From Polynucleobacter sp. 30F-ANTBAC (GTDB lineage: Bacteria > Pseudomonadota > Gammaproteobacteria > Burkholderiales > Burkholderiaceae), in assembly GCF_018882385.1 (NCBI RefSeq), contig NZ_JACVON010000002.1, forward strand, positions 124,001 to 188,000: a DNA stretch of 64,000 nt, in the 5' to 3' direction. Made by a program: the position numbers and the translations under genes. This document shows, piece after piece, positions 19,275 to 28,045 of this stretch. Below the pieces are notes generated by a model that saw only the letters and a program-made list of their open reading frames with translations, was not told the DNA's origin and did not search any database. Numbering within the stretch: the first letter of the stretch is position 1; every line of letters starts with the position of its first letter.

Positions 19275-19314
19275 ACTCCGCGTCTCTCTCTAGCGAGCGC
19301 GGAGTTTCTTTTTT
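19275..19314. terminator. terminator between dsbA and the convergent NTF2-like gene
   Basis: ACTCCGCG (19275-19282) pairs with CGCGGAGT (19298-19305), followed by TTCTTTTTT. The right arm and T run lie within the last codons of the NTF2-like gene, whose stop falls in the loop. Confidence 0.8.
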
Positions 19315-19721
19315 AGAAGCCTCATGATGGCGCCGATTAAAGGCAATTTTTCATAGAGTTCTTCTGCGGCATCCCAATAATCTCTGTGTTCTGTAATCAG
19401 CGAGTCTTGGCTGATGGTTAGCCAGGAGCATCCTTTGATGACTTGTTGTTTTCTTTCATTTTTAAAGTAAAAGCGAAACTCCCATGTGAGACAGGCTTCA
19501 TGAGGGGTGCTTATGTCTTTCAATACAATAAATTGAGGTTGGTCAACCTGCTCAAACATATGAGTAAATATTTTTTTAATTGCCGTACGACCTGTAACCT
19601 CGTTAAAAGGGTCTTTAAAAACAGCGTCATTTGAATAAATATCGATCAAGTGGTCAACTGTATTTAAATTAAGACCCTCAAAACGACCAACAACGTCTTT
19701 AATGAATAAATTTTCTGACAT
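19290..19721 (-). CDS. NTF2/SnoaL-like protein
   Basis: The 143-residue protein fits the SnoaL-like NTF2 fold: an N-terminal helix followed by YSNDAVFKDPFNEVTGRTAI and later LTWEFRFYFKN and HRDYWDAAEELYEKLPLIG. The fold covers isomerases, hydratases and non-enzymatic ligand binders, so the reaction is open. It starts directly after the SDR stop and is the last gene of the light-stress operon. In related clusters a similar small protein accompanies the SDR, lipid methyltransferase and flavoprotein genes. Confidence 0.8.
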   Translation of the reverse strand: MSENLFIKDVVGRFEGLNLNTVDHLIDIYSNDAVFKDPFNEVTGRTAIKKIFTHMFEQVDQPQFIVLKDISTPHEACLTWEFRFYFKNERKQQVIKGCSWLTISQDSLITEHRDYWDAAEELYEKLPLIGAIMRLLKKKLRAR

Positions 19722-20501
19722 TTAAATTTTTACAAACTTCTTAAGCAAAAAGAAATAAATTGGATAGGGCAGTATTCGAAGAAATTTTAGGAATAAAGAA
19801 AACTGCCTTGGGAAATGAATGTCAAAATCCCCAGCCATCATGCCGTCAATAATGTGCTTGGCAGCAGCATCGCTAGTGATGAGTGCTGGCATATGAAAAT
19901 CATTTTTAGCTGTTGCTTCAGTAGCAACAAATCCTGGATTAATCATGTACACATTCACGCCTAAAGGAGCTAAGTCATAGTACAGATTTTCACAGAAATT
20001 AATCATCGCCGCCTTGCTTGGGCCGTAAGCTAGCGCCTTTGGAAGTCCGCTATACCCGGCAACGCTGCTCACGATACCAATGCCCCCATGTTTTTGACGA
20101 ATCAAGTCCGGCAAAACAACAGAGCATGCTGACATGGGGCCAATAACGTTGGTGGCAATAATATTTTTGGCTTTATCTAAATCAAATTCATCAGCTCTCA
20201 GAGGCTCATAAACACCAGCAACGTAAAGTAGCAGATCTAATTCGCCCCATGCATTTTTAATAGTGCCGTAGGCATCTTTTAATGAGGATTCATTTAAAAC
20301 ATCGCAGCTGATAACTAAGGAGCTTTCTGGTGAGAAATGACTCTGTATCTCTTTAAGGGAATCAAGCCTTCTGGAGCTTAATGCAACTTTTGCGCCAAGC
20401 TTTAAAAAGGCATGTGCAGTTGCATGGCCAATGCCACTAGATGCACCAATGATCCATATTCGCTTGCCGGAAAAATGATCAATTTTTTGATTGAGTGACA
20501 T
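19722..20501 (-). CDS. short-chain dehydrogenase/reductase
   Basis: The 259-residue enzyme has the nucleotide-binding glycine motif GASSGIG near residue 18, an internal LLYVAGVYEP, the catalytic Ser near VSSVAG, and the YGPSK catalytic Tyr-Lys pair. The C-terminal end is basic and hydrophobic (PYPIYFFLLKKFVKI), suggesting membrane association. Its start shares one base with the cfa-like stop. The substrate is unknown, but the neighbours suggest modified fatty acids or lipids. Confidence 0.87.
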   Translation of the reverse strand: MSLNQKIDHFSGKRIWIIGASSGIGHATAHAFLKLGAKVALSSRRLDSLKEIQSHFSPESSLVISCDVLNESSLKDAYGTIKNAWGELDLLLYVAGVYEPLRADEFDLDKAKNIIATNVIGPMSACSVVLPDLIRQKHGGIGIVSSVAGYSGLPKALAYGPSKAAMINFCENLYYDLAPLGVNVYMINPGFVATEATAKNDFHMPALITSDAAAKHIIDGMMAGDFDIHFPRQFSLFLKFLRILPYPIYFFLLKKFVKI

Positions 20502-21721
20502 TACTGAGGTTTCTTTAGTGTGAACTGGATAACATCTGTACTCTTTTCAGCAAAGCCGGCAGCGCAATACATTAAATAGAGATTCCAAAGTCGTATAAAA
20601 CGATCATCAAATCCCTGCGATTTAATTTCAACAAGAGCTGCATTAAATTTTTCATGCCACATGCGAAGGGTCTTTTGATAGTCGGAGCCAAACGAATAGA
20701 CTGTTTCAACAACCAGGCCAGCTTTTTCAGCTGATTCTTTGAATAGTGAGATGGTTGGCAGCATGCCCCCGGGGAAAACGTATTGTTGAATGAAGTCTGA
20801 GCTTCTTTGGTACTTATTAAAAAGCTCCTCGGCAATCACAATGCTTTGAATGCAGGCTTTTTTACCAGGCTTAAGGCATCTATAGACCATTTCAAAATAA
20901 CTAGGCCAATATGCTTGACCAACAGCCTCAAACATTTCAATGGAAGCAATACCATCATATTGCTCATCATGATCCCTGTAGTCTTTTAAAATAATACTGG
21001 ACTGGCTCTCAAAGGAGGCATCTAGACTCTCCGCCCTTTCTTTAGCGTAATGCGCTTGCTCTTGGGATATCGTTAAACAATCAATATCAATATTTTTTGT
21101 TTTAGCTGATTCCATCAAGCCGCCCCAGCCACAGCCAATTTCAAGTAAACGTTCCCCTGGTAATACGCCAGTAGATGAAATAATTTTGTTGTATTTGGTC
21201 TTTTGAGCATCTAACAAAGACATATTCTCATGCTCAAAGATGGCGCTTGAATAGGTCATGCTTGGATCAAGCCATAAAGAGTAAAAAGAATTACCAATGT
21301 CATAGTGGGCATGGATATTCTTCTTGCTGCCTTCTTTCGAGTTTTTATGGAGCCAATGCTTGATCCTGTAACCAAGCCTACCCCACCAACTTCCATAAAT
21401 TGCTTTTTCAATAACTTGGCGATTAATTAGGAAAAGTCGAAGAAGGGATTCGATGTCTGGTGAGTCCCAGTGGCCGCTCATAAAAGTTTCTGCAAAGCCA
21501 ATATCACCTGATTTCAAGCACGCCTTGCAAACAATCCAATCATGGATTTGTATTTCAGCAGCAATGCCATCATTTTTGCCTGTAAAGACAAGCGTCTGAC
21601 CCGAAGGTGTGACAAGTGTGAGTTGTCCAGCCTGGAGTTTGCTTAAAAGTTTAAGAACACCTTTGGCATACCAGGGAAGGTTTTCAACTTGGCCACTTAA
21701 CATATTGACTTGCGTATTCAT
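20501..21721 (-). CDS. cyclopropane-fatty-acid-synthase-like methyltransferase
   Basis: The 406-residue protein belongs to the Cfa family, which transfers a methyl or methylene group from SAM to the double bond of phospholipid acyl chains. The SAM loop LEIGCGWGGL is clear, preceded by HYDIGNSFYSLWLDPSMTYS, which is diagnostic. The N-terminal about 120 residues form the usual extension. In the context of a flavin oxidoreductase, DUF1365 and an SDR it may act in membrane lipid modification during photo-oxidative stress, including a furan or methyl fatty acid pathway. It overlaps DUF1365 by four bases. Confidence 0.88.
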   Translation of the reverse strand: MNTQVNMLSGQVENLPWYAKGVLKLLSKLQAGQLTLVTPSGQTLVFTGKNDGIAAEIQIHDWIVCKACLKSGDIGFAETFMSGHWDSPDIESLLRLFLINRQVIEKAIYGSWWGRLGYRIKHWLHKNSKEGSKKNIHAHYDIGNSFYSLWLDPSMTYSSAIFEHENMSLLDAQKTKYNKIISSTGVLPGERLLEIGCGWGGLMESAKTKNIDIDCLTISQEQAHYAKERAESLDASFESQSSIILKDYRDHDEQYDGIASIEMFEAVGQAYWPSYFEMVYRCLKPGKKACIQSIVIAEELFNKYQRSSDFIQQYVFPGGMLPTISLFKESAEKAGLVVETVYSFGSDYQKTLRMWHEKFNAALVEIKSQGFDDRFIRLWNLYLMYCAAGFAEKSTDVIQFTLKKPQ

Positions 21722-22494
21722 TTGCTCACTTCAGAGTCTGGTGGTACTGGCTTTGGATGAAAGGGAACACCTTTTAACCATAATTTAAGTGCTTGCCAAT
21801 GAATTCTAAAAATAACCCCAAAACTCATTGCCGGATAGCGAATTGCAGACCAGATAATGGTTCCTAGTGTAATGTCTTTTTCAATGCCATTGATGCTGGT
21901 AATTAAAACTGGACCTTCAAGGTGGTACTCAATTCGAGCAACGTGTTGCGGTGGCGCTGATAAGTGGCTAAAAAACCGAAATAAGTAAGTTCCAGTCGTC
22001 TCGCAAAAAGGGGATACATGGAAAATTTTGGTTGAGCTTAGTGTTTGCCCCCACTTAAGGTGGCCGCCTTCTTCATCGGATAAAAGGTAGCAATGTCGCT
22101 CACCAAAGGTATTGTTGACCTCGGCAATTACAGCTCTTAAATCACCCTGCTTATTTTCAAAAAACCAAAAGCTCACGGGATTAAAAACGTAGCCTAAAAC
22201 TCTTGGAAAAGTATGTAGCCAAATTTCACCCTCAACATCTTTTATGCCATGAGTTTCAACAACATCAAGAGCCCAAGCAAGTGAGTCATTGCTGCCATTA
22301 CCATGATCTTTATCGTAAAAAGATAATAAAGACGACTTGTTGTCCCCTAAGCCCCATTGCTTAATGCCATTGGCATGGTTTTTACGTTCTCGCATCGGGA
22401 TGCGCAAAGAGAAAACGGAGTAGCTGAAAGAGTTTTTAGCGGGCTTGATGCGAGCATGACGAACTTGACCAAAGCATAATTTAGCTAAGCTCAT
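21718..22494 (-). CDS. DUF1365 family protein
   Basis: The 258-residue protein matches DUF1365: an opening CFGQVRHARIKPAKNSFSYSVF, then VFNPVSFWFF in the middle and KIFHVSPFCE. The function is unproven, but the family consistently sits beside an FAD amine-oxidase-like protein and a Cfa-like methyltransferase. I place the start at ATG 22494 with a modest AAGG ribosome site, overlapping the flavoprotein 3' end by 14 bases; the frame extends to 22551 with a less likely start. The end overlaps cfa by four bases. Confidence 0.85.
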   Translation of the reverse strand: MSLAKLCFGQVRHARIKPAKNSFSYSVFSLRIPMRERKNHANGIKQWGLGDNKSSLLSFYDKDHGNGSNDSLAWALDVVETHGIKDVEGEIWLHTFPRVLGYVFNPVSFWFFENKQGDLRAVIAEVNNTFGERHCYLLSDEEGGHLKWGQTLSSTKIFHVSPFCETTGTYLFRFFSHLSAPPQHVARIEYHLEGPVLITSINGIEKDITLGTIIWSAIRYPAMSFGVIFRIHWQALKLWLKGVPFHPKPVPPDSEVSK

Positions 22495-23824
22495 AGGGCC
22501 TTGAGTCCTGATGAAGTGGTCGATGAATAATTTCTGAAATAGCCTCTGCAACTAATTCTCCAGAGCGCAATCCATCTTCATGAAAACCATAGCCTGTCCA
22601 TGCGCCACAGAACCAAGTATTTCGATTACCTTGAATCAAAGGTAGATTAGCTTGAGCCTCTACTGCAGCTTGATCAAAAATAGGATGAGCGTAGTCAATT
22701 TCAGCATGAATGCTGTGCTTATCTGGATCCATCACTGGATTTAAGCTCACAATCACTGGTTGATCTTGCCATGCTGCTGGAAGTGGCTGAAGCTTATTAA
22801 TTAGATAGTTGACGCAAACTTGTTGATCACTCATGCTGTTGGCTAGAGAGCTGGTGTAGTTCCAGGCCGCCCAGCACTTTTTATTTTTAGGTAAAAGCTT
22901 TTCATCTGTATGCAAGATGACTTTATTGCTTTGATACTTAATTGAATTGAGAATATTTTTTTCTTGTTCATGAATGTCGCTGATTAGCTCCAACGCTTGA
23001 TCGCTATGTGTTGCAAAAATCACATGATCATAGGTTTTAGTAGAGTTTCCAGAAATGACGTCAGCGTGACCATTTGCTCTCGAAACACTTGTAACCGGCT
23101 CTCGAATAAATTCGCCACCACGAGCACTAATAGCACTCACAATTCGATTGACATACTCTCTTGATCCACCATTAACGGTGAGCCACTGAGGCCTATCTGT
23201 TATTTGAATCAGTCCGTGATTATGACAAAACCTAATCATGGTAGAAATCGGAAATGAGAGCATTTGAGAAACGGAGCACGACCAAATGGCACCAACCATT
23301 GGCAAGAAATACCAGTCTCTAAAAGCCTCGCTAAACCGATGTTTCTTAATAAACTCACCAACTGACAGCTCTAGCTCGCCAACTTTGTTTTCTACTGCTG
23401 CACTTGTGCACAGTTTATTAAAGCGCAGAATGTCAGAAACCATTCTCAAAAAAGCAGGCTTGATTAAATTTTTTCTTTGGGCAAATAGCGAATCTAAGCT
23501 GGTTCCGGCCCACTCGATATTTTCCCCATAAGTTTGAGGAATGGAAGCAGAAAACGACATGTCTGATTTTGAAATCGGCACATTTAATTCATTAAATAAT
23601 CGAATCAAACGTGGATATGTACGCTCATTGAAAACTAAAAATCCCGTATCAATGCCGTGAGTGACGGGGCCATTGATCGTCTCAATCGTTAGATCAACTG
23701 TATTGCTATGGCCGCCTATATGAGATCCACCTTCATAGATGGTTAATTCTAGCCCTGGAAGTTTACTTAGCGCATGGGCGCAGCCAAGGCCTGATATACC
23801 TGCACCAACAATTGCTATTTTCAT
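22481..23824 (-). CDS. FAD-dependent amine-oxidase-like oxidoreductase (COG2907)
   Basis: The 447-residue flavoprotein begins with the dinucleotide-binding motif VGAGISGLGCA and the downstream YEGGSHIGGHS. The C-terminal WFCGAWTGYGFHEDGLRSG is the flavin-binding end typical of this NAD/FAD family. It resembles the COG2907 proteins that cluster with DUF1365 and Cfa. The substrate is uncertain, with unsaturated fatty acyl chains being the natural guess from the operon. The gene is separated from folE2 by 97 bases that contain a nested hairpin. Confidence 0.87.
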   Translation of the reverse strand: MKIAIVGAGISGLGCAHALSKLPGLELTIYEGGSHIGGHSNTVDLTIETINGPVTHGIDTGFLVFNERTYPRLIRLFNELNVPISKSDMSFSASIPQTYGENIEWAGTSLDSLFAQRKNLIKPAFLRMVSDILRFNKLCTSAAVENKVGELELSVGEFIKKHRFSEAFRDWYFLPMVGAIWSCSVSQMLSFPISTMIRFCHNHGLIQITDRPQWLTVNGGSREYVNRIVSAISARGGEFIREPVTSVSRANGHADVISGNSTKTYDHVIFATHSDQALELISDIHEQEKNILNSIKYQSNKVILHTDEKLLPKNKKCWAAWNYTSSLANSMSDQQVCVNYLINKLQPLPAAWQDQPVIVSLNPVMDPDKHSIHAEIDYAHPIFDQAAVEAQANLPLIQGNRNTWFCGAWTGYGFHEDGLRSGELVAEAISEIIHRPLHQDSRPYELS

Positions 23825-23921: not shown

Positions 23922-24725
23922 TTATTGAGTCAATCTTTTGTCGTTAGAAAGCCAAGCGTAGGCAGAATGATTATGAATAGATTCAAAATTTTCTGATGAC
24001 ACTTCATAAGCAATGATGTTTTCTTCTTGGTGAAGTGCAACAGCAATATCTCTCACTAAATCTTCAACAAATTTAGGGTTATCGTACGCGCGCTCGGTGA
24101 CATATTTTTCATCGGGGCGCTTGAGTAGTCCCCATAGCTCACATGATGCAGCTTGCTCGGCAATTTTGATCAGATCTTCCACATGCATATCATTCGTTAA
24201 TTCTGCAGAAATGATGATGTGAGAGCGTTGATTATGAGCGCCGTATTCAGAAATCTTTTTAGAGCAAGGGCAAAGGCTTGTCACTGGAACTTGAACTCCC
24301 AATACATAACGTATCACGCCCTTTTCAGAGCTGGCTCTAATCGTAACGTCATAGTCTAAAAGACTTTGCACACCGGAGACAGGCGCGGTTTTATTGATGA
24401 AAAGGGGCATCTTCATATCAATATGGCCTTCTTCTGCTTCTAGGCGAATGAGCATATTTTTTAAAAGATCATGCATGCTATCGAAGCTAATAGGCTCGTG
24501 ATTTGACTGGAGGATTTCCAAAAATCTAGACATATGAGTGCCTTTGATATGAGCTGGCAACATCACGGTCATATCAATCATCGCAACGCTACCTTGCATA
24601 CCAGTTTTTGTTTGCAAAGTAACAGGATGACGAATGGCTTTCACGCCGACTTTTTGAATAACAATTTTTCGTTCATCAGGACTTGCTTGAACGTCTGGTA
24701 AGAAAATATTTTCTGGGGCGTTCAT
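23922..24725 (-). CDS. folE2: GTP cyclohydrolase FolE2 (type IB)
   Basis: The 267-residue enzyme converts GTP to dihydroneopterin triphosphate, the first step of folate and pterin synthesis. The FolE2 active-site cysteine lies in [20 protein letters not shown], and [18 protein letters not shown] is the usual N-terminal signature. Its start overlaps the gpx-like gene by four bases. In light-regulated clusters, folE2 probably supplies pterin for the photolyase/cryptochrome antenna or for extra folate demand; this role is inferred from context. Confidence 0.94.
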
Positions 24726-25354
24726 GGTTGCTTCTCCTTTAGTAACTTCTCAATCAAAGATGTTATTTTTTTATTGCTCGGCGAGGTCATGCTATTGAAT
24801 GAATCAACTACATTGCCTTGCCTATCAATGATGTACTTATAAAAATTCCATCGAGGTTTAGTGCCTGTTTTCTCAATCAGGCCCTTAAATAGCGGATTGG
24901 CATCTGGACCTGATAACGTTGTTTTTGCAAACATTGGAAATTTAACGCCGTAGGTATTGTGACAAAACTCAGCAATTTCTTTGTTGTTACCGGGTTCTTG
25001 TTTGCCAAAGTCGTTTGTAGGAAAACCCAAAACAACAAAACCTTGATCTTTGTATTTTGCAAAAACCTTTTCAAGGTCATCGTATTGGCTTGTAAATCCA
25101 CAATAGCTTGCTGTATTGACGACCAAAATTACTTTACCGTTGTATTGGCAAAGATTTTGAGGCGCTTCATCCTGAAGCCTTAAAAATTGCTGGGATAGTA
25201 ATGGTGGGCAGGTCATGGCTTGCGATTCCTTTGGCCAAGAGAGCGACAAGAGAAATAGGGTGGTTGTTATGAGCAGGTTCATTAAGAAAAAAGAAACCCT
25301 AGGGCTCTTTTTTCTTAATGAGGGTAGCTTGCTTTTGTTATTAACTACCTGCAT
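24722..25354 (-). CDS. glutathione-peroxidase-like thiol peroxidase with N-terminal signal
   Basis: The 210-residue protein has a basic start, a hydrophobic segment ([16 protein letters not shown]) and then a GPx fold. The peroxidatic Cys is in [12 protein letters not shown], the Gln in FGKQEPG and the Trp in WNFYKY, so the catalytic triad is present with Cys in place of selenocysteine. The signal suggests export or membrane anchoring, unusual for a bacterial GPx. I chose ATG 25354 behind AGGAG; GTG 25372 and the internal ATG at 25282 are alternatives. A perfect inverted repeat at 25279-25321 lies within codons 12-25. Confidence 0.85.
25279..25321. repeat. perfect 16-bp inverted repeat in the 5' coding region of the gpx-like gene
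   Basis: TCATTAAGAAAAAAGA (25279-25294) is perfectly inverted as TCTTTTTTCTTAATGA (25306-25321). The 11-base centre contains the palindrome CCCTAGGG (25297-25304). On the gene strand this gives A run, GC core, T run, as in a terminator, and the internal ATG at 25282 falls in the distal arm. It could attenuate transcription or hide a second start codon. Confidence 0.75.
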
Positions 25355-25414
25355 GTTGTGGTGTCTCCTCACCCAGTTTCTATATATTTAATAACCCTTG
25401 GACAGAAATGGTCT

Positions 25415-25427
25415 TTGTCTAGGGCAA
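25415..25427. promoter_or_regulatory. LitR/CarH-type operator candidate, gpx-proximal
   Basis: TTGTCTAGGGCAA is an imperfect palindrome matching the site at 25477-25489 in ten of thirteen positions. It lies 61 bases upstream of the gpx-like start and is a probable binding site of the divergent MerR-type regulator. Confidence 0.55.
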
Positions 25428-25476
25428 AAAATATCTATGTACGAATATTAAGCACAAATAGAAATAAATGCAAATC

Positions 25477-25489
25477 CTGTCTAGGACAG
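25477..25489. promoter_or_regulatory. LitR/CarH-type operator candidate, regulator-proximal
   Basis: CTGTCTAGGACAG is a perfect palindrome (five-base arms, TAG centre). A -10-like TAGAAT follows at 25492-25497, so a bound repressor would cover the promoter of the regulator-photolyase pair. The partner site is at 25415-25427. Confidence 0.65.
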
Positions 25490-25547
25490 TGTAGAATTCT
25501 TTAGTCGATACCAAGTATTAACTTGGCGACCATTGGCGAGCTTAACT

Positions 25548-26522
25548 ATGAACGTAAGATTTACTAATTTGCCAGATATGCTGAGTATTGCTGCTGTAGA
25601 GCGTGATACGGGCATTGCCAAAGACACACTCAGAGTCTGGGAGCGTCGTTACGATTTCCCTAAGCCTCTACGAGACGCAAATGATGATCGCGCCTACCCC
25701 ATTGATCAGGTAGAAAAATTAAGACTTTTAAAGCGCTTACTAGATCAAGGGCATCGTCCAGGAAGAGTTGTCCCTCTGCCAATTGAAGGATTACGCCAGT
25801 TAAATATAAAACCTGCTGTAGACACTGAAGCCATTCACGCTCACAGCCCAGTCATTTCTCAAGAGGAAATGTCCCGTTATCTAGACTTATTAAGATCTCA
25901 TCAAACTGAAGCATTGCGTCTAGCGCTTTCAACAACCATGATGAAAATCGGGTTAGATCGCTTTGTGATTGAGTTGGTGGCACCGCTAATTAAGAATATT
26001 GGCGAGTATTGGGCTGATGGAAAAATTGAGATTCATGAAGAGCATTTGTTTACAGAGCAAATTAAACATTTACTCAGAACAGCCATCAATTCTGTTCCGA
26101 GAGGACACACTGGTCAAAATGAAGATTTGGCTAGACCCAGAATATTACTAACCACATTTCCACAAGAGCAGCATAGCTTAGGCCTCTTAATGGCTGAAGC
26201 TTTAATGGCTTTAGAAGGCTGTGTTTGCGTATCACTGGGCACGCAAACTCCAATATTAGAAATTGCTCAGGCAGCAAGAGCGCAAAAAGCAGATATTGTT
26301 GCCTTGTCATTCTCATCACAAATTAATCAAAATCAAGTGGTCGACGGTTTGAAGGAGCTGCAGTCTAAGCTGGCTCCTGGCGTTGAGGTTTGGGCGGGGG
26401 GTGATAACCAAGCTCTTAAAAAGAGACCTCCAGAGCATGTGAAGATCCTAACGGCCTTACAAGATATCTCTGAAAGCATCAAACACTGGCGCACTCAACA
26501 GAAAAATCAAGAACTCAGTTGA
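25548..26522 (+). CDS. litR: B12-binding MerR-family photoreceptor (LitR/CarH type)
   Basis: The 324-residue protein has an N-terminal MerR helix-turn-helix (DTGIAKDTLRVWERRYDFPKP) and a C-terminal cobalamin-binding module. The light-sensing signature W-x9-E-H is exact: Trp155, Glu165 and His166 in EYWADGKIEIHEEH, and the lower axial ligand is His209 in EQHSLG. In characterised homologues, adenosylcobalamin holds a tetramer on DNA in the dark, and light breaks the Co-C bond and releases it. ATG 25548 is preferred to TTG 25533. The product probably represses both divergent operons. Confidence 0.9.
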   Translation: MNVRFTNLPDMLSIAAVERDTGIAKDTLRVWERRYDFPKPLRDANDDRAYPIDQVEKLRLLKRLLDQGHRPGRVVPLPIEGLRQLNIKPAVDTEAIHAHSPVISQEEMSRYLDLLRSHQTEALRLALSTTMMKIGLDRFVIELVAPLIKNIGEYWADGKIEIHEEHLFTEQIKHLLRTAINSVPRGHTGQNEDLARPRILLTTFPQEQHSLGLLMAEALMALEGCVCVSLGTQTPILEIAQAARAQKADIVALSFSSQINQNQVVDGLKELQSKLAPGVEVWAGGDNQALKKRPPEHVKILTALQDISESIKHWRTQQKNQELS

Positions 26523-28045
26523 AAAAACTTATCCTGATCCTAGGTGATCAGCTTCAGGAAGATAGCTCTGCTCTAATTGACTTTAATGCTGATCATGATG
26601 AAATTATCATGATCGAGTCTTCTGCAGAGGCTGAATACGTTTGGTCACACAAAGCTCGCATCGTACTATTTTTATCCGCGATGAGGCACTTTGCAGAGCA
26701 CTTGAATAAGAAAGGCTTCCCTCTTTCTTATTACAAAGAAAATAAACAAACAATAGTTGATGTATTGGCTCAACATATCAAGAAGCATTCAATCACTCAT
26801 TTGATATGTGTCGAGCCTGGCGAGGTTCGTCTAAGAGATGCGTTAATGGACTTAGCTCATGAGTTAAGCATTCATTTGGAGCTCAGGCCTGACACCCACT
26901 TTTATTGCGGCACGAAAGAGTTTTCAGACTGGGCTGGTGATAAAAAAGAATTGCGACTTGAATATTTTTATCGTTATATGAGGAAAAAGCATCAGGTATT
27001 GATGCAAGAAAATGGAGAGCCAGAGGGCAATTGTTGGAATTACGATCAGGAAAATAGAAAGCCATATTCTAAAAAAGGTCCTGGTTTAATTGTTGAGCCA
27101 CTTTGGTTTGAGCCTGACTCCATAACAAAAGACGTTATTACATACGTTGAAAAAGAATATGAAGATCATCCAGGAAGCCTTAATCAGTTTAAATGGCCGG
27201 TGACTAGACAAGATGCATTGCTAGCACTCGACCATTTCATTGAACATCGACTTGATCATTTTGGGACACACCAAGATGCTATGTGGACTAAAACCCCATT
27301 TGGTTGGCATTCTATTATTTCCAGCTCACTTAATTTAAAGCTGATAAGTCCTAAGGAGGTTGTTCAAGCAGCTCTCAATAAATGGGAAAGAAATCCAGAC
27401 CTCTTAAGTTCAATTGAGGGATTTATCAGGCAGATAGTTGGCTGGCGAGAGTTTGTGCGCGGCATCTATTATTTAGATATGCCAAAAATGGCAATAGATA
27501 ATCACTACAACCATCAGCGCAAGTTGCCGAAATGGTACTGGACGGGTGATACCAAAATGGCTTGCATGAAAGATGCCATTGATCAAACTTTAGAGCATGG
27601 CTATGCTCATCATATTCAGCGATTAATGATCACTGGCAACTTTGCCTTGTTGGCAGAGCTGGTGCCTCAGGAGGTTTGCGCTTGGTATTTGGCGGTATAT
27701 GTTGATGCAATAGAGTGGGTAGAACTACCAAACACCGCAGGCATGGCGTTATTTGCCAATGGCGGAAGATTTACAAGTAAGCCGTATGTCGCAAGTGGCG
27801 CTTATGTAAAAAGAATGAGTAATTACTGCCAATCTTGCAGCTACAAGAGTGAGGTTCGTTATGGTGAAGATGCATGCCCTATGACCACTTTGTACTGGAA
27901 TTTTTTACTCAAGCATCAATCGTCTTTTGAAAAGAATCCAAGAACGAAGTTAATGGTGGTTAATTTGAAGAAGATTGCTGCCGAAGACCAAGTTTTAATT
28001 GCTGAACATGCTGAAAAGATTCTGAATGATCTAGAGGTTGTTTAG
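26519..28045 (+). CDS. photolyase/cryptochrome-related protein, FeS-BCP type
   Basis: The 508-residue protein belongs to the COG3046 branch of photolyase-related flavoproteins, including the (6-4) photolyase PhrB and CryB. It begins KKLILILGDQL, contains the FAD-domain stretch RQIVGWREFVRG and GNFALLAEL, and near the C-terminus has NYCQSC followed by DACP, the cysteines expected to bind a 4Fe-4S cluster. The start is TTG at 26519, overlapping the regulator stop by four bases (TTGA), so the pair is coupled. It probably repairs (6-4) photoproducts or acts as a light sensor. Confidence 0.9.
   Translation: MKKLILILGDQLQEDSSALIDFNADHDEIIMIESSAEAEYVWSHKARIVLFLSAMRHFAEHLNKKGFPLSYYKENKQTIVDVLAQHIKKHSITHLICVEPGEVRLRDALMDLAHELSIHLELRPDTHFYCGTKEFSDWAGDKKELRLEYFYRYMRKKHQVLMQENGEPEGNCWNYDQENRKPYSKKGPGLIVEPLWFEPDSITKDVITYVEKEYEDHPGSLNQFKWPVTRQDALLALDHFIEHRLDHFGTHQDAMWTKTPFGWHSIISSSLNLKLISPKEVVQAALNKWERNPDLLSSIEGFIRQIVGWREFVRGIYYLDMPKMAIDNHYNHQRKLPKWYWTGDTKMACMKDAIDQTLEHGYAHHIQRLMITGNFALLAELVPQEVCAWYLAVYVDAIEWVELPNTAGMALFANGGRFTSKPYVASGAYVKRMSNYCQSCSYKSEVRYGEDACPMTTLYWNFLLKHQSSFEKNPRTKLMVVNLKKIAAEDQVLIAEHAEKILNDLEVV

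Follow-up and report, generated by a model that had tools for sequence, protein, structure and literature searches.

Conserved palindromic boxes between divergent light-associated genes of Polynucleobacter are very probably operators of a CarH/LitR-like B12 photoreceptor

Which protein uses the two palindromes that lie between the divergently oriented genes litR and gpx of Polynucleobacter sp. 30F-ANTBAC, and what might it control from there? A sequence-only reading of the window, by which we mean the whole 64,000-nucleotide stretch of DNA analysed here, had described them as a pair of related operators for a CarH-like regulator of divergent promoters, with looping between them as one possible mode of action. 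The two palindromes are located where that reading placed them (Table 1), with 10 of 13 positions in common and starts that are 62 bp apart, and the additional GGACAG that it mentioned near 25400 is present at 25400-25405. From the window alone, the pair is not significant, since sites with up to two mismatches are rarer than expected by chance (6 observed versus 12.5 expected); the significance comes from comparison with other genomes. In the 1.96-Mb genome, the exact sequence TGTCTAGGACA occurs once, and with at most one mismatch it occurs nine times, including the two members of the pair.

Table 1. Features of the litR-gpx region; coordinates refer to the window.
Feature	Position	Strand	Remarks
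FAD oxidoreductase, DUF1365, cyclopropane synthase-like, SDR and SnoaL-like genes	19290..23824	-	rest of divergent cluster
folE2-type GTP cyclohydrolase	23922..24725	-	divergent cluster
Glutathione peroxidase family gene (gpx)	24722..25354	-	first gene of divergent cluster
Half-site TGGACA	25399..25404	+	inverted relative to left arm of box 1, N11 between
Box 1 (LitR box) TTGTCTAGGGCAA	25415..25427	none	in 15/15 Polynucleobacter litR loci
Candidate litR -35 AGGGCA, weak	25421..25426	+	inside box 1, 17 bp from AATATT
Candidate shared near-symmetric -10 AATATTA	25444..25450	both	AATATT on plus (25444-25449), TAATAT on minus (25450-25445)
Candidate -35 of gpx-folE2 operon TTGCAT, weak	25468..25473	-	17 bp from TAATAT
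Box 2 (LitR box) CTGTCTAGGACAG	25477..25489	none	in 15/15 Polynucleobacter litR loci
Second candidate litR -10 TAGAAT	25492..25497	+	just past box 2; TSS predicted near 25503
Hairpin GUCG-AUA-CCAAGU-AUUA-ACUUGG-CGAC	25504..25530	+	predicted 5' end of litR mRNA
litR	25548..26522	+	MerR-type HTH and B12-binding domains, CarH/LitR class I type
Photolyase-related protein (PF04244, DPRP)	26519..28045	+	start overlaps litR stop

The start of litR was set at the conserved ATG at 25548 rather than at the TTG at 25533 of the ORF list. Pfam domains MerR_1, B12-binding_2 and B12-binding all scored above their cut-offs in the LitR protein, giving an HTH followed by two B12-binding domains. The Wx9EH motif is present (W155-x9-E165 H166), as it is in all 80 family loci examined, which are the best 80 of 531 relatives. 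The second B12 motif reads ExHx2Gx41SxSx27GG, with Ser256 at the position where the published pattern ExHx2Gx41SxV/Tx22-27GG has V/T; a pattern that also allows Ser is matched by 78 of the 80 loci (best 80 of 531). The best solved relatives are LitR/CarH of Thermus. An AlphaFold model of LitR (mean pLDDT 86, pTM 0.69) was superimposed on CarH cobalamin-domain chains with Z scores of 19-20 and an rmsd of 2.3-2.9 over 191-200 residues at 21-22% identity. Photocobilin proteins gave Z scores of 19.6-21.4, two of their chains (21) ranking slightly above CarH, and AppA and MetH gave scores of 15-18. The top NCBIfam match was the CarH equivalog NF052513 at 107.7 bits, which is below the curated cut-off of 400, and the protein is thus a CarH-like homologue and not an equivalog. 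On the basis of these motifs and the fold of the model, we class LitR as a CarH/LitR-like B12 photoreceptor of the class I type. The PduO-type adenosyltransferase family was identified in 30 of 30 genomes, indicating that AdoCbl could be made. Adenosyltransferases were rejected as a marker that separates genomes with litR (litR+) from those without (litR-), with the PduO family found in 30/30 and the CobA family in 0/30 genomes.

Within the genus, a litR orthologue with at least 80% identity is present in 14 of 151 Polynucleobacter genomes, the window's own counted, and a fifteenth locus (G331) was added from the family search. We refer to genomes without this orthologue as litR-; many of these contain weak B12-domain matches, mostly of less than 30% identity. 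In the 15 loci, the spacing of the boxes is 62 bp in 14 cases and 63 bp in one. The mean column identity was 0.95 for box 1, 0.92 for box 2, 0.98 for the GACA half-site, 0.92 for AATATTA, 0.97 for ATGCAAAT, 0.96 for TGTAGAATT and 0.89 for the hairpin, as compared to 0.60-0.78 for the stretches between the conserved elements. GACA is found at 9-12 bp from box 1 in 14 of the 15 loci, and a half-site at that spacing was not noticed in other genera upon inspection by eye.

Beyond the genus, we analyzed the best 80 of 531 relatives, which represent the nearest part of the family and consist of 70 non-Polynucleobacter and 10 Polynucleobacter loci. L145 and L147, the latter starting at residue 49, were left out of the box comparison. 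The 350 bp upstream of litR were searched in the 70 non-Polynucleobacter loci, and 1,468 windows from the same loci, mostly coding, served as the control. Exact TGTC-N3-GACA was found upstream of litR in 62 of these 70 loci as compared to 2 of the 1,468 control windows; when up to one mismatch was allowed, all 70 had a box, as compared to 127 control windows. Pairs separated by 62-64 bp were identified in 36 of the 70 loci and in all 10 Polynucleobacter loci of the set, and pairs at 53-54 bp in another 5 of the 70. The control windows contained six pairs at any spacing from 12 to 140 bp, two of which were at 53-54 or 62-64 bp. With a relaxed rule, the 62-64 bp pair was recorded in 50 of the 80 loci (best 80 of 531) and was missing from the other 30. 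On the LitR tree, both halves include loci with the pair; the trait changes 12 times and is more clustered than under shuffled labels. In another genus of the same family (L148-L170, 23 loci), the exact box was found in 22 loci and the strict 62-64 bp pair in none. Loss of the sites upstream of orthologous regulators, which the sequence-only reading had named as evidence against itself, was thus not what we observed: the boxes are kept at this position across the Burkholderiales. We conclude that the palindromes are real, conserved sites.

The candidate promoters between the boxes were more evident in other genera than in the window. When the paired loci of other genera were aligned by their boxes, the right half of box 1 provided a -35 for the litR direction, and a TTGAC-like -35 for the divergent direction appeared a few bases inside box 2; the two lead to overlapping -10s about midway. 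The -35 of the best plus-strand promoter was located at box 1 in 39 of the 46 paired loci among the best 80 of 531 (34/36 non-Polynucleobacter and 5/10 Polynucleobacter). For the minus strand, the best -35 was located beside box 2 in 25 of the 36 non-Polynucleobacter and in none of the 10 Polynucleobacter loci of this set. Matches to at least 9 of 12 consensus positions were obtained in 21 of the 46 paired loci for the plus strand and in 25 for the minus strand (best 80 of 531), versus 7 of 240 random segments; the plus-strand number benefits from the resemblance of the box itself to TTGACA.

Scanning the window from 25280 to 25620 with a sigma-70 consensus gave no promoter-like match, and the proposed window promoters, AGGGCA-N17-AATATT and TTGCAT-N17-TAATAT, are weak and were placed by conservation and by analogy with the other genera. 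Placed in this manner, the -35 proposed for litR on the plus strand overlaps the right half of box 1, and the candidate -35 of the minus-strand promoter is located immediately downstream of box 2. ATATTA is present at the shared -10 in 13 of the 15 Polynucleobacter loci and GCAAAT at the minus-strand -35 position in 14. The boxes thereby appear to bracket two back-to-back promoters with a common -10, the promoter role of AATATTA being suggested by analogy. On the minus strand, the close spacing of the genes suggests that the divergent cluster is co-transcribed.

Given two such promoters, occlusion is the simplest mechanism. From the sequence, its conservation, the positions of the boxes and the regulator family, we infer how binding, promoter use and the direction of the light response would fit together. 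In the dark, AdoCbl-bound LitR would occupy both boxes, each of which would cover or abut the -35 of one of the two promoters, box 1 being the -35 region for litR and the photolyase-related gene and box 2 occupying roughly positions -40 to -50 of the gpx-folE2-lipid promoter. Both promoters would be closed to RNA polymerase until light cleaves the cofactor, LitR is released and both transcripts increase. We consider it likely, with good confidence, that the palindromes are operators through which the adjacent LitR occludes both promoters in the dark and frees them in the light. The earlier proposal of a CarH-like regulator that acts through them on divergent promoters gains support from the Wx9EH motif, the near-match to the B12 motif, the CarH fold and the conserved boxes.

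The same arrangement has been taken to suggest a loop, in which LitR dimers or a tetramer would bind both boxes at once, bend the 62 bp between them and trap the shared promoter. A spacing near six helical turns (62-64 bp) in most paired loci among the best 80 of 531, and of about one turn less (53-54 bp) in four Thiomonas-like loci, would suit such a structure. However, the spacing also fits a -35/-10/-10/-35 geometry, and since two back-to-back promoters locked to the boxes account for 62-64 bp, it provides no evidence for a loop. Moreover, the Thiomonas-like set is laid out differently, with a third box, and the pair is missing in 30 of the 80 family loci (best 80 of 531). The looping part of the sequence-only reading is thus unsupported, and we regard a loop as possible but rather doubtful.

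MerR activators typically bind within the promoter spacer, and box 2 falls within the spacer of the candidate TAGAAT promoter downstream, between GCAAAT and TAGAAT, both of which are conserved in Polynucleobacter (TAGAAT or TAAAAT follows box 2 in 15/15 loci). LitR could thus activate its own gene from box 2 in the manner of MerR. In the 36 paired non-Polynucleobacter loci (best 80 of 531), nothing comparable is conspicuous past box 2, and CarH proteins are described as repressors in the available text of PMC8156234 and PMC9304148, which makes activation of this kind improbable.

If the boxes are LitR operators, they may also be present at other genes in genomes with litR, and the sequence-only reading had suggested examining whether they mark light genes. 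Within the genus, rhodopsin and osmC were marked only in litR+ genomes. A rhodopsin gene is present in 5 of the 15 litR+ Polynucleobacter genomes and absent from the window's own genome. All five contain an exact TTGTC-N3-GACAA, with five different centres, at 48-76 bp before the called start codon of rhodopsin, as compared to none of the seven litR- genomes with full rhodopsin genes (one-sided Fisher p 0.0013, uncorrected for kinship); G088, with a rhodopsin fragment below the cut-off, was left out of this count. The probability that a box of this type arises in the 230 bp upstream of each rhodopsin gene was estimated at 2-9 in 20000. One-mismatch boxes were observed at two of the seven litR- rhodopsin genes, one located at -197 and the other within the gene. 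Four of the five litR+ upstream regions have similar flanks, so that the boxes are not five independent events, whereas the flank of the fifth (G138) has diverged. In the single genome for which the whole operon was examined, rhodopsin is the first gene, followed by crtE, crtI, crtB, crtY and blh-type genes.

For osmC, the window genome has a box about 50 bp upstream of the gene. The pattern TTTGTC-N5-CAAA was found upstream of osmC in 8 of the 12 litR+ genomes with osmC versus 0 of 15 litR- genomes (Fisher p 0.0002, uncorrected for kinship). With at most one mismatch to TGTC-N3-GACA, the numbers were 6/12 versus 0/15 (p 0.003, likewise uncorrected), and with two mismatches allowed they were 8/12 versus 2/15; the contrast thus depends on the match rule. 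The box is missing in 4 of the 12 litR+ genomes, and in G016 the osmC gene is broken and its upstream region has no box. Because the litR+ Polynucleobacter are close relatives, neither the rhodopsin nor the osmC counts are independent. Besides the pair, the window's genome has seven one-mismatch sites, two in coding sequence and five not covered by an ORF; the seven include the osmC site and others near COX1, rubrerythrin/GDT1, CoA-transferase/PrpR and flagellar genes. Based on these comparisons, LitR probably controls osmC and, in litR+ relatives, the rhodopsin-crt-blh operon.

The strict 13-mer TTGTCNNNGACAA was rejected as a genome-wide regulon finder, as it occurs at 16 places in 15 litR+ genomes versus 17 in 15 litR- genomes. 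Counting as coding any place covered by an ORF of at least 90 aa, the litR+ places comprise 10 coding and 6 intergenic ones (5 at rhodopsin and 1 between convergent genes in G008), and the litR- places 16 coding and 1 intergenic (G117). Neither of the window's two sites is a strict match to this 13-mer. Control by LitR of the FAD-DUF1365-CFA cluster in Duganella-type genomes was also rejected: the cluster was found in 11 of 17 such genomes, and in all 11 the 400 bp ahead of the FAD gene lack a box. The Duganella group keeps litR and the box pair, with a porin gene, far off, as the divergent neighbour in the two loci inspected. The porin neighbour and the lack of a box before the cluster indicate that the regulon differs by lineage.

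Comparison with known systems showed both similarities and differences. The available text of PMC9304148 and PMC8156234 describes CarH operators in Thermus, Bacillus megaterium and myxobacteria as three to four tandem 11-bp direct repeats, nnnnTnnACAn, that overlap -35 regions and control crt genes, and that in some myxobacteria have been proposed to act on divergent promoters. The system studied here resembles them in its MerR-B12 photoreceptor with similar motifs and fold. It differs in that its boxes are single TGTC-N3-GACA palindromes, arranged as a spaced pair, and in its neighbours, gpx, folE2 and lipid genes together with a photolyase-like gene, and rhodopsin in relatives. The best three-repeat match in the window scored 7/12, which was reached by 497 of 500 shuffles, and the best four-repeat match 10/16, reached by 251 of 500. 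A full tandem set was found in 0 of 80 family loci (best 80 of 531), where the mean scores of 7.91 and 9.70 were in slight excess of the shuffled values of 7.61 and 9.13. Each window box holds one TnnACA unit (TAGACA) on the minus strand, which makes a single CarH-type contact per box arm conceivable.

Two sites at a light promoter controlled by a LitR-family repressor are also a feature of the class II LitR proteins PplR1/PmlR2 of Pseudomonas. As presented in the available text of PMC9758184, these recognize T(G/A)TACA-N12-TGTA(C/T)A at two sites, of which one is on the -35 and the other lies past the start, and are thought not to bind B12 and to be inhibited by a LOV partner. The best TGTACA-N12-TGTACA match in the window region scored 9/12, with a shuffled mean of 8.0. 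Neither tandem 11-bp CarH repeats nor PplR1-type sites gave a convincing match, and both were rejected as the identity of the boxes. The class III LitR of Burkholderia multivorans is reported to have a similar light gene set beside litR (folE2-litS, cryB, cfaB). To our knowledge, class III LitR lacks the B12 domain. The available text of PMC9758184 places class III mainly in Burkholderia and describes its C-terminus as different.

The mismatch to both published site types would agree with binding of the boxes by a regulator other than LitR. However, litR and the box pair are retained in the loci of Duganella and its relatives, most of which contain no match to the other eight light-cluster proteins of the window in the stretch examined, so that litR is what stays with the boxes. 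The rhodopsin and osmC boxes also follow the presence of litR, and binding by another regulator therefore seems hardly likely. That the palindromes arose by chance and have no function agrees with the lack of enrichment in the window alone, but is extremely improbable given the conservation and the comparative counts. Thus, the sites are very probably operators of the B12 light sensor LitR.

As far as could be found, this operator type is new within the LitR/CarH light-switch family; our literature search, which mostly did not cover subscription papers, retrieved neither a report of this operator nor of LitR/CarH control of rhodopsin. It offers a testable operator for B12 photoreceptors of the Burkholderiales, unlike the tandem repeats that underlie the CarH DNA-binding model, and thereby questions the generality of that model. 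A direct link from a LitR operator to proteorhodopsin is probable. On balance, we favour the view that LitR of freshwater Polynucleobacter directly controls the whole proteorhodopsin operon, with its rhodopsin, carotenoid and retinal genes, as well as photoprotection genes, via a palindromic operator unlike the CarH tandem repeats, and that the pump would be built only when light destroys the B12 cofactor. This suggests that one sensor may switch both sun protection and light harvesting, and provides a candidate answer to how rhodopsin-bearing freshwater bacteria time rhodopsin production, namely through a single cofactor-based light sensor. LitR regulons may also be readable from sequence via the box.

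Several loci deserve mention in their own right. The rhodopsin-crtE-crtI-crtB-crtY-blh operon of one litR+ Polynucleobacter (L241:2669-8946) begins with the exact box, and the upstream regions are contained in L228-L232. G031, which has no litR, encodes an OsmC 90% identical to that of the window and has no box, forming a natural pair for the gain or loss of the litR regulon. In G150:C59 (L015), the orthologue is absent and a 35%-identical LitR-like protein is located beside a second B12-domain match. In L148-L170, the arrangement differs, consisting of one TGTCCATGACA-type box with TTTGTCTAT- and TTTGTCCA-like half-sites upstream. The Thiomonas-like loci L104, L105, L116 and L117 have three boxes, of which a 53-54 bp pair is near the start of the divergent gene and the third is just before the litR start codon. 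In L073:2830-3690 and its equivalents in Duganella, Rugamonas and Massilia, about 0.8-1 kb separates the porin gene from the litR box pair. This stretch is partly conserved (69-94% in matching stretches), has no minus-strand ORF of 110 aa (L073, L112) and no Rfam match, and the candidate minus-strand promoter located between the boxes is directed into it; it is possibly a non-coding RNA or a porin leader.

Finally, the predicted 5' end of the litR mRNA contains a hairpin with a folding energy of -10.3 kcal/mol (z -1.7), and 11 of 200 shuffles fold equally well. A search of Rfam at the gathering threshold with the window and three loci gave no match. Across the 15 Polynucleobacter sequences, 88.7% of the cells pair; at two of the inner pairs, pairing is lost in 6 and 7 of the 15 rows. 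Changes on both sides were observed at 3 of 10 pairs, a number reached by 15 of 500 shuffles, and the covariation score was matched by 0 of 500 shuffles. We suggest that the hairpin may act as a 5'-terminal stem that steadies the litR-photolyase mRNA.
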